Source of the DNA: Brevinematales bacterium | Lineage (GTDB): Bacteria > Spirochaetota > Brevinematia > Brevinematales > Thermospiraceae | Direction of reading: 5' to 3' | Assembly (NCBI GenBank): GCA_013177995.1 | Contig: JABLXN010000004.1 | Location: forward strand, 1 to 64,000 | Length of the DNA: 64,000 bases | In this document: positions 10,636-42,660 of the stretch, one piece after another | Position numbering within the stretch: position 1 is the first letter of the stretch | Layout of the letters: every line of letters starts with the position of its first letter | The notes under the pieces: generated by a model | Seen by the model: only the letters and a program-made list of their open reading frames with translations | Told to the model about the DNA's origin: nothing | Databases searched by the model: none | Translations under genes and position numbers: made by a program

Positions 10636-13600
10636 TTATTCTTCTGTAAACCAGAAGGTTAAACCGGCACTGATACCTTGCTGACTGGTCTTGAAATAGT
10701 CCTGCCATCCAAAGGTATAAGCCAAACGTAGGCCAAACCAGCCAAATTTGAGATCCATTCCAATATCGGTCATATCATACTTCGCAATATCAAAGACAAT
10801 GAAATCAGACCACAAAACCTGAGTATCAGCAAAGAAACTCCACTGAGCAAGAATGGGAATACGAATACCTCCGCCAAAAGCTATGGCATAAGGGGCATAG
10901 GCATGAGGTGTGGCATTGTACATACCCCCTAACGAAAGCTGGAGAATGGGTAGGGGATGAATCCCCAGTTGTGCACGAACCATGTAGTTCATCTCACTTC
11001 CAAACTGGAAGCTCTGCGGTTCTATGCCACTGTAGAATGCTGAAAAACTCATTCCGCTCCAGTTTCTCACCATCTTGGGCCACCACACGTCACTCTTTTG
11101 CTTTTGTTTTTTCACATTTTCAATGCGTTTTTCCACGCGGTTTCGCTGTTCCTTTATAACCTGATACTCCTTAAACGGGGAAGCATCAATTTTCGCAAGA
11201 ACATTCTGGTAAATCTTGAGGGCCTCTGCATACTGACCATTTTCGGCTTTGCGATCGGCTTCATATATCATCGCACTTATACTGTCAATAAGTACTTTCG
11301 CATCACCGGCCAATTCTTTCTCTGCTTTTTTGTTGGCGGCTGTTTTTTGTTTCATCTCAATATCCACATAGGTATTTGACAATGTCTCATTTTCAAAAGC
11401 ATCAACCTCTTTGATGAGAGAAAGGGCCTTGTTATAATATTTCAATGCATCCTCATAATTTTCGTTTTGACTTGCCGTATCACCAGCGGCTACTACTCCC
11501 ATAATCTCACCCTCTATTTGTTTCCAGGCATAGAGAGCATAGCTTTTTCTGATAGTATTTCGAAGTTCAGGAAGAGGGGCATTTGTCAGTCGGCTATTAT
11601 CTATCTTTTCCACAAGTTGCTTGAATTGAATCACGGCATTAGAAATATCTCCTCTCTCTGCCAAAAGATTCCAATAGTTGTAATTTGTAGAAACATCAAG
11701 ATAAAGATCGGCTACTAGAATATTATCTCCCAATTCTTTTTTAGCAGAGAGGATTTCGTTCTCTAATGTCCGAAGTTTTGGAAAAGAAGCATATTCAGAC
11801 GTGCGAACGGTAGAAAGTGCGAGAGCAAAATTAGAACTTGCTGAGAAAAAGTCATTTTGTCCTGCAGCATCAAGGGCCTCTTGCAGGAAGAAAAGAGCAC
11901 TGTCCAGGACATCATCCTCTCCAACTCCAGGAAGGGAAGTGAATGTGAGAATGAGAGTCTCTTTGGAATTGACAGTAAGATTGGTCACAACGGTCCTAAA
12001 ACCCCGTTTGTTCAATTTCAATTCTACACTTCCCATTTCTACAGAAAAGACATTGGAACTACTATAGCCCACAAAATCCCCATTGACATAGGCTTCAAAG
12101 CCTTTCTCTGGAACAGTACTTACATATAACTTGGCTGGGGCGTCCTTGAGCTTTAGAGATAACATATTCTTCATATTAGGCTGAATATATATGTTAGTAG
12201 TCAAAGTTTTATAACCTTCTTTTTCAATTCTGATAGTGGTATTACGAGCAGGAAGAGTAGTAATATCAAGTCCTCCCATTCCTGTTTTTCCACGGGCAAT
12301 ACCATTGACCGAAACAAAGGCATCCTCCGGTTGGGTCACTACAGTTAGATCTCCAAAAAGAGGAGAAAGCGATGCCAACACAACATTGAAACGGTAGGCG
12401 GACCATTCGACATTGGTCATCACATTCATATAACCCATATTGGTACCCAAAAACTCAAGAGAAAGCCGAGGGGTCTCTAAAGACCAGAGTGGAGCAGGGG
12501 TCTTGAGGCGTCGTTTTCCGTCCACCAAGACAGTGAGTCCCTTTTCCGGGGTAGCAATAACCATACCCGCTACGGGACGGGGTTGAAGATCAACGGTAAT
12601 AGTCTTCTGCTCTTCTTTGAAGGTAATGTTCGTCCTGAATGGAAGATAGCCATCTTTGATGACGGTAACCAGATTGAGCCCCGGCGTTATCTGGGTTTCA
12701 AAGCTTCCATTCTGAATGGTTCCTACTTTTCGTCTATTCACAATCACTGATGCCCCTTCCTGAGAACACTTGACCACAAATGAGGTTCCTTTTCGGCTCA
12801 GAGAAACGGTCTGCATATTCAATACATTGGGTTCAAGGGTAAAGGTATGCTGTTTCATTTTGTAGTTCTCTGTTTCCTCAAAAATCACGGTTTTAGCCCC
12901 AGCTGGAACATTGGTCATAAAGAAAGGAGTTTTTCCCTGAATTCCGTCTTCTAATATCAAAAAGATTGCTCCCGGATAATCAGCATTGAGAAACAGATGA
13001 CCTTTTGGTCGCTCCTCAGCGGCACCTACTATTTTCTTTGTGGCTACCAATCGAATCACATACGTCGAAGGATTGAAGCCAACAGAAACATTGGTAAAAA
13101 AGGGATCATACCCATCGGCCATCACAAGGAGCGGATAATTGCCAAGTGGAAGCTCATTTTGACCAGGTCTAAAGATAACCGAAGGCAAAGAAATGAACTG
13201 AAGATTTTTTGCTGTGGTAGGTACAAGAGAAATCGTCACTTTTCCCTTAACCTCTGGTTGGTAATAATACCTATCCCACTGATTAAACAGGGCTATGATA
13301 TTTTCCTTGAGAAGGGTATTCAAAGCGGGAGTGTTGGTGAGGAGAGAAGAGGCAACCGTTACCTTCTGGACCACGGGTTTTGGTGAAGCAGGGGACTGAT
13401 ACCAGGAAAAAGTGATAGTATAGGTGGTACCACTCACAGAAAAAGCTATATCAAGAGCCTGTTGAAAACGAATATAGTTTGAAAGAGTTTTGAAAAAGGT
13501 CCCCGAAAAAGGAGCAACCTTGATAGGCTGAATCTTTGCAGGAGGAACCACCTTTCCTTTGACGATTACTAGGTTAGTATTGGTACGATTGATCTCCATA

Positions 13601-13818
13601 ATAATGGAGTTCGCCCATTCCACTGCTGTTGACACAGGAAGATAGGCATTATTGAGAATCTCATTCACATCGTGAAGATTGTAGGTAACTTGATTCACAA
13701 GAAGTTGATAAGAACCGTCATCCATCCCCCTGGGTTTTGCTCCCATGGACACAAGCGTAATTGTTTCTCCCCACAGAAAAAGGGGAAAAAACAGAAGCAT
13801 CACAACGTATTTTTTCAT
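10636..13818 (-). CDS. Large PEGA-domain / TPR / beta-barrel envelope protein
   Basis: A 1060-residue exported protein; the signal peptide ends in LFLWG-E. After an N-terminal domain (about 20-260), four to five PEGA-type beta modules follow (about 265-625), each with a pattern like P-x-A-x-V-x-[VI]-[ND]-G-x-x-x-G and a final GYK/GYL/GFR turn. A helical, TPR-like region (about 640-905) contains two repeats of the type YxxALKxYxxAL. The last about 145 residues alternate hydrophobic strands and fit an outer-membrane barrel. Such architectures are common in spirochaetes; none has a precise known role. ATG 13818 is preceded by GAGGAG. It heads a two-gene operon with the GH57-like protein and has a consensus promoter at 13861-13888. 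Confidence 0.75.
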   Translation of the reverse strand: MKKYVVMLLFFPLFLWGETITLVSMGAKPRGMDDGSYQLLVNQVTYNLHDVNEILNNAYLPVSTAVEWANSIIMEINRTNTNLVIVKGKVVPPAKIQPIKVAPFSGTFFKTLSNYIRFQQALDIAFSVSGTTYTITFSWYQSPASPKPVVQKVTVASSLLTNTPALNTLLKENIIALFNQWDRYYYQPEVKGKVTISLVPTTAKNLQFISLPSVIFRPGQNELPLGNYPLLVMADGYDPFFTNVSVGFNPSTYVIRLVATKKIVGAAEERPKGHLFLNADYPGAIFLILEDGIQGKTPFFMTNVPAGAKTVIFEETENYKMKQHTFTLEPNVLNMQTVSLSRKGTSFVVKCSQEGASVIVNRRKVGTIQNGSFETQITPGLNLVTVIKDGYLPFRTNITFKEEQKTITVDLQPRPVAGMVIATPEKGLTVLVDGKRRLKTPAPLWSLETPRLSLEFLGTNMGYMNVMTNVEWSAYRFNVVLASLSPLFGDLTVVTQPEDAFVSVNGIARGKTGMGGLDITTLPARNTTIRIEKEGYKTLTTNIYIQPNMKNMLSLKLKDAPAKLYVSTVPEKGFEAYVNGDFVGYSSSNVFSVEMGSVELKLNKRGFRTVVTNLTVNSKETLILTFTSLPGVGEDDVLDSALFFLQEALDAAGQNDFFSASSNFALALSTVRTSEYASFPKLRTLENEILSAKKELGDNILVADLYLDVSTNYNYWNLLAERGDISNAVIQFKQLVEKIDNSRLTNAPLPELRNTIRKSYALYAWKQIEGEIMGVVAAGDTASQNENYEDALKYYNKALSLIKEVDAFENETLSNTYVDIEMKQKTAANKKAEKELAGDAKVLIDSISAMIYEADRKAENGQYAEALKIYQNVLAKIDASPFKEYQVIKEQRNRVEKRIENVKKQKQKSDVWWPKMVRNWSGMSFSAFYSGIEPQSFQFGSEMNYMVRAQLGIHPLPILQLSLGGMYNATPHAYAPYAIAFGGGIRIPILAQWSFFADTQVLWSDFIVFDIAKYDMTDIGMDLKFGWFGLRLAYTFGWQDYFKTSQQGISAGLTFWFTEE

Positions 13819-13923: not shown

Positions 13924-14122
13924 GAGACCCCTGCACCGGTGCTTTCTTGCCCTTTTTAGGTCAGGGGCTGCGACCCTCTTCCCCGCTTTTTCTGTTTACA
14001 GGGGCTCACTTGTCTTTTCTGTTCAAAAAAATAGAATTATTGATTACGAAAAGAAATATTTTTATACTATTTTTTATTTTTTATTACTTTTTGAGACCTT
14101 TGCACATTCGTGCAAAGGTCTC
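13924..14122 (+). repeat. Dispersed ~200-base element, copy 2
   Basis: A full copy of 199 bases. It begins GAGACCCCTGCACC and ends with a 30-base hairpin (GAGACCTTTGCAC, loop, complement) at 14093-14122, two bases before the stop codon of hflX. A TATACT at 14063-14068, with TTGATT 18 bases upstream, points toward the hairpin. The element fills most of the 306-base gap between the PEGA gene and hflX. A frame open across it (13947-14204) is not conserved in copy 3. Confidence 0.85.
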
Positions 14123-14124
14123 AT

Positions 14125-15219
14125 CTAAGGATTTTTTCCCTTCTCCTCTACAAAAAAGCGATAGATGGCCTCTCGCAAAAGCGAGAGGTTTTCTTTTGTC
14201 TTAGCCGAGAGAAAATAGGCTTTTGGGAAGTTTCTTCTGAGTTCTAAGTACACTTCTGTTTCCAACATATCAATCTTGTTGAAACAGAGGATTTGAGGGA
14301 CCGTTTCTGCCTGAATCTCGGAGAGGGTTTTTTGAACAATCTCTATTTGCTGAAGATAGGCCGGATGGACACTATTCACCACATGAATGACCAAATCAGT
14401 ATCTATGGTTTCTAACAGCGTAGATCGAAAGCTTTCTACTAAGGTATGAGGTAAATCCTGAATAAATCCCACGGTATCGGTGATGACAACCTGAATATCT
14501 CCCTTTTCTCCTGTTAGCCACAACCTTCGCGAAGTGGTATCCAGTGTGGCAAAGAGCTGGTCCTCCACATAGACCTGGGAATGCGTGAGCGCATTCAAAA
14601 GAGAGGATTTTCCTGCGTTGGTATATCCGACCAAGGCAACACTATGCTGCATCTTTCGTCGTTTCTTTCTTCTTTCCTGCATGCCCTTTTCAAGGGCTTC
14701 CAGTCGCTGAGAGAGCTGATAGATCCGTTTTCTGACAAGCCTTCTGTCCATCTCAAGTTTCTGTTCACCGGGACCACGCATCCCGATTCCACCACGGATT
14801 CGTGACATCTCCACCCCTTTCCCCACAAGACGAGGAAGAAGATAGTTGAGCTGGGCAAGTTCCACCTGCATTTTCGCAATCTTGGTCCTGGCATGGAGAG
14901 CAAAAATCCTGAGGATCAATTCGGTTCGGGTGATCACCTCGCAAAGGGTTTTTTCCTCAATAGCCCGTATCTGAGAAGCACTGATTTCCTGCTGGATGAT
15001 GATACCGTCAAGATGTGGGGTGTCATAGAAATGCACCAGTTCTTCGAGCTTTCCCTTTCCGATATAGGTTTTTGGATCAATAGCACGAATGGGCACAATA
15101 AGCCGATCCACAATCTCATAGCCTGCGGTTTTTGTGAGATCCTCCAGTTCTTCCATAGCCACCTGATGAAGAAGGGGATTCTCCTTCCCTTCGATGATAC
15201 TAACAAGGAGTACCTTCAT
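14125..15219 (-). CDS. hflX: Ribosome-associated GTPase HflX
   Basis: HflX binds the 50S subunit and, in known cases, splits or rescues stalled ribosomes under stress. The 364 residues show the N-terminal HflX nucleotide-binding domain (YIGKGKLEEL), the glycine-rich linker RGGIGMRGPGEQKLEMDRR near 145-165, and a GTPase domain with G1 GYTNAGKSSLL, G3 DTVGF and G4 NKID. Length is normal for the family. The start codon overlaps the stop of the preceding gene (ATGA at 15219-15222), so it is the last cistron of the nfeD-to-hflX operon. The stop codon lies almost inside the hairpin of repeat copy 2, which could define the 3' end of the mRNA. Confidence 0.95.
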   Translation of the reverse strand: MKVLLVSIIEGKENPLLHQVAMEELEDLTKTAGYEIVDRLIVPIRAIDPKTYIGKGKLEELVHFYDTPHLDGIIIQQEISASQIRAIEEKTLCEVITRTELILRIFALHARTKIAKMQVELAQLNYLLPRLVGKGVEMSRIRGGIGMRGPGEQKLEMDRRLVRKRIYQLSQRLEALEKGMQERRKKRRKMQHSVALVGYTNAGKSSLLNALTHSQVYVEDQLFATLDTTSRRLWLTGEKGDIQVVITDTVGFIQDLPHTLVESFRSTLLETIDTDLVIHVVNSVHPAYLQQIEIVQKTLSEIQAETVPQILCFNKIDMLETEVYLELRRNFPKAYFLSAKTKENLSLLREAIYRFFVEEKGKNP

Positions 15220-37442: not shown

Positions 37443-37644
37443 GAGACCCTTGCGCGGGTGTTTTCTTCCCCTGTTTAGGTCAGGGGCTACGCCCCTGAAA
37501 CCCCGCTTTTTCTGTTCACAAGGGTTTATTTGTCTTTTTTATCCAAAAAAATAGGCCTGTTTATTATGGAAAGGAACATTTTTATACTACTTTTTGTTTT
37601 TTTATTACTTTCTTGAGACCTTTGCACGAATGTGCAAAGGTCTC
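37443..37644 (+). repeat. Dispersed ~200-base element, copy 3
   Basis: A 202-base copy. It starts GAGACCCTTGCGCGG and has the inner perfect hairpin TCAGGGGC-TAC-GCCCCTGA at 37480-37498. It ends with a perfect 30-base hairpin GAGACCTTTGCAC-GAAT-GTGCAAAGGTCTC at 37615-37644. TATACT at 37583-37588, with TTTATT 18 bases upstream, points to the hairpin and to the lipoprotein gene beyond it. Confidence 0.88.
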
Positions 37645-40162: not shown

Positions 40163-40660
40163 CTACAAAAACTTCATAATGGCTGTGGATAAGGTAACAA
40201 GAATACCTATAAACCACATTATCATGGTAAAACGATGGTTGACTTCTTCAAATCGTTTGTCAACCAACTCAAATCTTTTATCCATCAACTCAAAACGCTT
40301 ATTCATTTCTTCTCTCATGAGCTCTAAACGTTTGTCCATTTCCTCAAAACGTTTATCTACTTGCTCCAAACGTTTGTCTACTTGTTCAAAACGTTTATCT
40401 ACTTGCTCAAAACGTTTGTCTACTTGCTCAAAATGTTTATTTACTTGCTCAAAACGTTTCTCTACCTGTTCAAACCGCTTATCCATCTGTTCAAGAAGCA
40501 GTCTGAAATCCTCTCGTAGATGCTCTATATCCTGTTTGGTAGCGTGTTCTTCTTTGATTTCCTTGATGTACAGCTCCAGTTCCTGAATGACCTCTTCTGC
40601 CTCTTCTTCAGAAACACTCTTGGTAAGGGCCTTGTAGAGGGAAATAAGAGAAGACATCAT
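40163..40660 (-). CDS. Heptad-repeat coiled-coil protein with C-terminal membrane anchor
   Basis: A 165-residue protein of unknown function. Residues 1-50 are helical and acidic, then about twelve near-identical heptads of the form [VM]-[DE]-K-R-[FL]-E-[QEL] (residues about 58-140) build a continuous coiled coil. One transmembrane helix (TMIMWFIGILVTLSTAIM) ends it. At DNA level the heptads are 21-base tandem repeats (about 40250-40480). Tail-anchored coiled-coil proteins of this type are related to DUF1640-like families, but the match is not specific. GGAGG precedes ATG 40660, and a TTGACT-17-TATACT promoter gives a leader of only about 10 bases. Confidence 0.75.
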   Translation of the reverse strand: MMSSLISLYKALTKSVSEEEAEEVIQELELYIKEIKEEHATKQDIEHLREDFRLLLEQMDKRFEQVEKRFEQVNKHFEQVDKRFEQVDKRFEQVDKRLEQVDKRFEEMDKRLELMREEMNKRFELMDKRFELVDKRFEEVNHRFTMIMWFIGILVTLSTAIMKFL

Positions 40661-42460: not shown

Positions 42461-42660
42461 GAGACCTTTGCACGAATGGGCAAAGGTCTCAAAAAAGTGG
42501 TAAAAAACAAAAAATAGTATAAAAATGTTCCTTAACGTAATAAATAAAACTATTCCTTTGAACAAAAAAGACAAATAAGCCCTTGTTAATGGAAAAAGCG
42601 GGGAAGAGGGGCGTAGCCCCTGACCAAGACGGGAAAAGAAAACATCCATACAAGGGTCTC
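42461..42660 (-). repeat. Dispersed ~200-base element, copy 4
   Basis: A full 200-base copy in the opposite orientation to copies 2 and 3. The 30-base hairpin end is at 42461-42490 with one mismatch, TATACT on the minus strand is at 42521-42516, and the outer end GGTCTC is at 42655-42660. It fills the gap between two convergent genes; its outer end lies 3 bases before the end of the pif1 gene. A minus-strand frame across it (42422-42649) is not conserved in copy 3. Confidence 0.88.

Follow-up and report, generated by a model that had tools for sequence, protein, structure and literature searches.

The repeat at 13924-14122 is almost certainly a MITE of the IS5 family, a geneless element that would be moved in trans by a DDE transposase of the type encoded by an insertion sequence (IS) on contig C27 of the same genome, with 5-bp target-site duplications (TSDs). 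It is one of four copies in the window, the 64,000-nucleotide stretch of Brevinematales DNA that was analysed, and all four sites are intergenic, as an earlier sequence-only reading had described. That reading had proposed either a miniature mobile element or a REP-like family, and had suggested a genome-wide count, a search for a transposase or longer element with the same ends and a comparison of empty sites. The first of its proposals is borne out: the element has terminal inverted repeats (TIRs) and 5-bp TSDs, one copy is nested within another in such a way that the empty site is exact, and the genome contains an IS5-family element whose ends are the same. The alignment of the four copies over their whole length and their GAGACC...GGTCTC ends are also as reported. 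The second copy, which is complete, is located between the start of a 1060-aa ORF (10636-13818, - strand) and the stop of hflX (14125-15219, - strand). The features in the window are as follows.

1-126, - strand: MITE copy 1, cut by the contig start; left end and first ~124 bases (model match C34:2-126, model positions 1-124)
113-126: left TIR of copy 1
73-87: inner hairpin of copy 1
13924-14122, + strand: MITE copy 2, complete, 199 bp
13924-13941, + strand: left TIR of copy 2, GAGACCCCTGCACCGGTG (family consensus GAGACCCTTGCACGGGTG)
13963-13977, + strand: inner hairpin of copy 2, AGGGGCTGCGACCCT, one mismatch from the consensus AGGGGCTACGCCCCT
14093-14122, + strand: right end of copy 2, the 30-bp palindrome GAGACCTTTGCAC-ATTC-GTGCAAAGGTCTC, formed of the outer right TIR and an inverted second TIR
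37443-37644, + strand: MITE copy 3, complete, 202 bp, in a divergent setting; the syntenic region of a congener is without the MITE
42461-42660, - strand: MITE copy 4, complete, 200 bp, in a convergent setting, with AAAAA on either flank

The element runs from the left end, GAGACCCTTGCACGGGTG, through the inner AGGGGCTACGCCCCT hairpin and an AT-rich right half to the right end, GAGACCTTTGCAC-ATTC-GTGCAAAGGTCTC, and its terminal inverted repeats are GAGACCCTTGCAC on the left and GTGCAAAGGTCTC on the right. At the right end, the outer 13 bases repeat the left end in inverted form and the inner arm is a further TIR in the opposite orientation, so that two TIRs stand back to back in a 30-bp palindrome. 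This double-TIR right end is the unusual feature of the family, and we know of no published counterpart in ATR, a MITE of Neisseria meningitidis. The 30-bp palindrome had been recognised from the sequence alone and is indeed present, but at the right end only. Conservation is 99-100% in its outer TIR arm and about 94-96% in its inner arm, where roughly one copy in three has a T-to-C change. A small number of copies carry matching changes in the two arms, and the loop is inverted in about 8% of copies. The better preservation of the outer arm fits selection on a site for the transposase rather than on the hairpin as such. The inner hairpin had been regarded as decayed in copies 2 and 4, which is incorrect for copy 4, where AGGGGCTACGCCCCT is intact, and holds for copy 2 only to the extent of one mismatch; what both copies lack is only the outer extension of this hairpin.

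The figure of four copies is correct for the window but far too low for the genome (G000, 2.38 Mb in 57 contigs), in which a model made from the sequences of 43 complete copies finds at least 151 matches, a lower bound on the copy number. The 30-bp terminal hairpin occurs 159 times genome-wide within 3 mismatches, a reversed control pattern gives 0 matches in the same genome at up to 3 mismatches, and a rough count of ~153 is estimated from the exact-hairpin rate. The MITE is thus the dominant repeat of this genome, amounting to roughly 31 kb, or about 1.3%. Several contigs start or end within copies (at window position 1 and also in C22, C19, C27, C30 and C44), which indicates that the repeat breaks the assembly and that some copies are absent from the counts. 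The complete copies (n=104) are of uniform length, 195-204 bp, and carry neither a gene nor a transposase remnant. Their pairwise identity is 85% and their identity to the consensus 91%, the average between nearest neighbours is 94%, and there are pairs at 99% or above, with the closest, at 99.5%, suggesting that movement may be recent or even continuing.

In the stretches around the MITE copies, which formed the sequence that was read, the element is found in both orientations and in gene settings of all kinds (-- 25, -+ 19, +- 16, ++ 14). Of the 100 tested sites, 77 fall outside ORFs of at least 100 aa, as against only 6% of the window, 94% of which lies inside such ORFs. The flanks and targets are AT-rich, at 31% GC. 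The MITE model has no match in the two congeneric genomes. Among 57 more distant relatives the sole match, a weak one in G056 (E 4e-4), was taken as probably due to chance, and five single TIR-like 18-mers in viral contigs are at about the level that chance would give in such a collection.

Insertion is recorded in the flanks. Perfect 5-bp TSDs border 57 of the 104 complete copies with readable flanks, compared with an expectation of 1.9 when the downstream flanks are shuffled, and 50 remain, against 1.5 by shuffling, when AAAAA/TTTTT are left out; about 40-45% of copies are without a perfect TSD. The sequence-only reading had seen no duplication, which is accurate for the complete copies 2 and 3, where none is left, but not for the family. 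At one locus, L068, a MITE is nested within another, the inner copy having the TSD ATTTT and the outer GAAAT, and removal of the inner copy together with one ATTTT restores a full-length MITE, so that the empty site is exact. The empty sites in a congener, G001, are less precise, since the genome is syntenic around 37443-37644 and 42461-42660 and is without the MITE, but diverged intergenic DNA blocks a base-for-base alignment of the junctions.

A DDE_Tnp_1 search of the genome returned three loci. An element with the same ends is indeed present, as a single intact IS at C27:24319-25684, which is 1366 bp in length, has GAGACCCTTGCACG inverted repeats at both ends and encodes one IS5-family DDE transposase. 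The two TIRs of this IS have the same sequence over 14 bp, and its left TIR shares 17 of 18 positions with the left-end consensus of the MITE. The transposase ORF is a full-length frame of 366 codons, with the D-D-E motifs visible in the translation, and it matches the NCBIfam IS5 model (NF033581, E 1.8e-84) together with Pfam PF01609 and PF05598. The TSD of the IS itself is imperfect (AGAAA/AAAAA), and the IS was not found in the two congeners. A decayed IS right-end remnant at C12:73924-74050 adjoins a MITE. IS5 relatives in other bacteria have GAGACC TIRs and 5-bp TSDs (ATATC in Solidesulfovibrio, ATATA in Desulfolutivibrio), exact 5-bp TSDs flank 9 IS5-related copies in Ca. Ruthturnera, and the TSD of the MITE is of the same length. 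The elements of Solidesulfovibrio carbinolicus and Ca. Ruthturnera share the transposase family (NF033581, 37-46% identity) and the GAGACC ends but, unlike the MITE, they are autonomous, about 1.27 kb long and have ends without a palindrome.

The transposase that acts in trans would most likely be that of the C27 IS, or else that of a close relative, since lost, whose ends were the same. It would recognise the GAGACCYTTGCAC terminal repeats of the MITE and insert the MITE at AT-rich sites, most of them intergenic, with a 5-bp target duplication. The MITE has its ends alone in common with the IS, with no clear similarity between the interiors, and hence it is not a simple internal-deletion product of the C27 copy. 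A type II MITE need not share its interior with the IS. The MITE is best regarded either as DNA trapped between a pair of IS ends or as descended from a relative since lost, and as moved in trans. It is possible, though rather unlikely, that the family was mobilised mainly by a different transposase that has since been lost, for example that of a close relative of the C27 IS, which would then be a cousin with the same ends. The unshared interior is consistent with such a history, as are the decayed second IS remnant beside a MITE and the average difference of 15% between copies, which implies that some bursts are old, but the left-end identity and the full-length DDE frame make the C27 IS a sufficient partner within the genome. 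On balance, the C27 transposase itself probably moves the MITE, and the pair offers a natural test case for the trans-mobilisation of a MITE that has only its ends in common with an IS.

The double-TIR end also bears on how the element may be lost. The inner TIR of the right-end pair is a 13-bp direct repeat of the left TIR, and a deletion between them would leave a lone 30-bp hairpin. There are 11 such hairpins without a MITE body, 4 of which lie in perfect 5-bp TSDs (AAATC, TTTTT, AAACT and ACTTT). These sites could instead be read as insertions of the hairpin itself, acting as a 30-bp transposon, and the TSDs around the 4 bodiless copies are what such a process would give. The seventh base of the TIR speaks against this, as among full MITEs 100 of 104 left TIRs have C there and all 98 inner arms have T (C in 0 of 98), and two of the 4 TSD-flanked hairpins, L006 and L019, have C at position 7 of the left arm, in the loop-ATTC orientation. 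They are consequently hybrids of a left TIR and a right end, made by deletion between direct repeats after insertion. Moreover, there is little space for a synaptic complex when two 13-bp ends share 30 bp, and a mobile hairpin is considered improbable. Judged from these base patterns, body loss by deletion between direct TIRs, with the lone hairpin left in the old TSD, is demonstrated at at least two sites, and the same origin is likely for the remaining lone hairpins. This represents one route of body loss in such elements, with a 30-bp scar as its product. A broader proposal, that the double TIR raises mobility, either because its pair of transposase sites within a single 30-bp palindrome aids synapsis or because the hairpin is the smallest mobile unit and some lone hairpins are true insertions, is similarly doubtful. 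One lone hairpin, at L078:2453-2482 (C36:12995-13024), is found within an alpha-amylase-like ORF and is flanked by a direct repeat of roughly 30 bp, GTACTTCCCGAACTATTGAGAATAACAAAC, rather than by a 5-bp duplication.

The two conserved hairpins and the intergenic placement would also suit a structured RNA, such as a riboswitch, attenuator or sRNA, repeated at many loci. This is very unlikely, since Rfam covariance models give 0 matches in the window at the gathering score, a match to a known RNA family having been named beforehand as a refuting outcome, and the consensus fold has no covariation support (a covariation term of -0.15 in a total of -34.82 kcal/mol). The occurrence in both orientations and in all gene settings is equally unfavourable, and the TSDs show arrival by insertion, which refutes an RNA as the origin of the repeat. 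Finally, a REP/BIME-like palindromic repeat spread by a Y1 tyrosine transposase (RAYT), the second proposal of the sequence-only reading, can be virtually dismissed despite the high copy number, intergenic location and terminal palindrome, because Y1_Tnp (PF01797, the TnpA-REP/RAYT transposase) has 0 matches in the genome whilst control genomes are positive, and because the element has inverted ends at both termini, in common with a DDE IS, that behave as TIRs with clear 5-bp TSDs, which Y1 transposition is not known to make.

An IS5-derived MITE is the preferred identity, and both GAGACC-type ends and MITEs that derive from IS5 elements are already published (ISPg1, ISNme1, BrickBuilt, ATR), so that the description of the repeat as unknown is fair for the specific family, which is new, but not for its kind, reported in Porphyromonas and Neisseria (PMC4596501). 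In P. gingivalis the MITEs and IS5-family ISPg elements have the TIRs GAGACCTTTGCA, GAGACCATTGCA and GAGACTGTTGCA (PMC4596501). BrickBuilt and MITEPgRS/MITE464 of this organism resemble the present family in having GAGACC-type TIRs that match the IS5-family ISPg1, ISPg4 and ISPg9, in being intergenic and without a transposase remnant, and in the insertion of one MITE into another (PMC4596501). They differ in their copy number of about 10-20 each, in line with the 10-20 copies typical of bacterial MITEs, and in their internal tandem repeats and variable or unclear TSDs (PMC4596501), whereas the present family has about 150 copies of a uniform 200 bp, a clear 5-bp TSD, a right-end palindrome and an unrelated interior. 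As cited in the same source, ATR is likewise a type II MITE, for which the IS5-family ISNme1, with the TIR GAGACCTTTGCAAAA, is the proposed parent, but it has 19 copies and a different host and interior (PMC4596501). MITECca01 of a Cardinium endosymbiont provides a parallel for the copy number, as a lineage-specific, intergenic burst to 169 copies with the parental IS still present, although it derives from an IS982-family element with which it shares interior sequence (PMC9769881). Taken with these precedents, the repeat is a new family of a known kind, set apart by its high copy number and its unusual double-TIR end; apart from the features discussed above, it is an ordinary lineage-specific MITE expansion.

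Other repeats are also present. An IS1380-family IS occurs at L077:1297-2649 (C38) and L078:498-1977 (C36), with a 450 aa transposase (NCBIfam E 2.5e-75), and was rejected as a parent of the MITE as the L077 copy is without GAGACC ends. The copy on C36, which is split in two reading frames, has a lone GAGACC hairpin immediately on one side and a complete MITE immediately on the other. In L078:1-360 (C36) the palindrome GGTTAAACGTTTAACC occurs several times together with TTTCAGC motifs, and is possibly another dispersed repeat. Within the window, a 21-bp in-frame tandem repeat at 40227-40490, with 9 copies in register, lies inside the ORF 40163-40660 (- strand), the product of which is probably a heptad coiled-coil protein.
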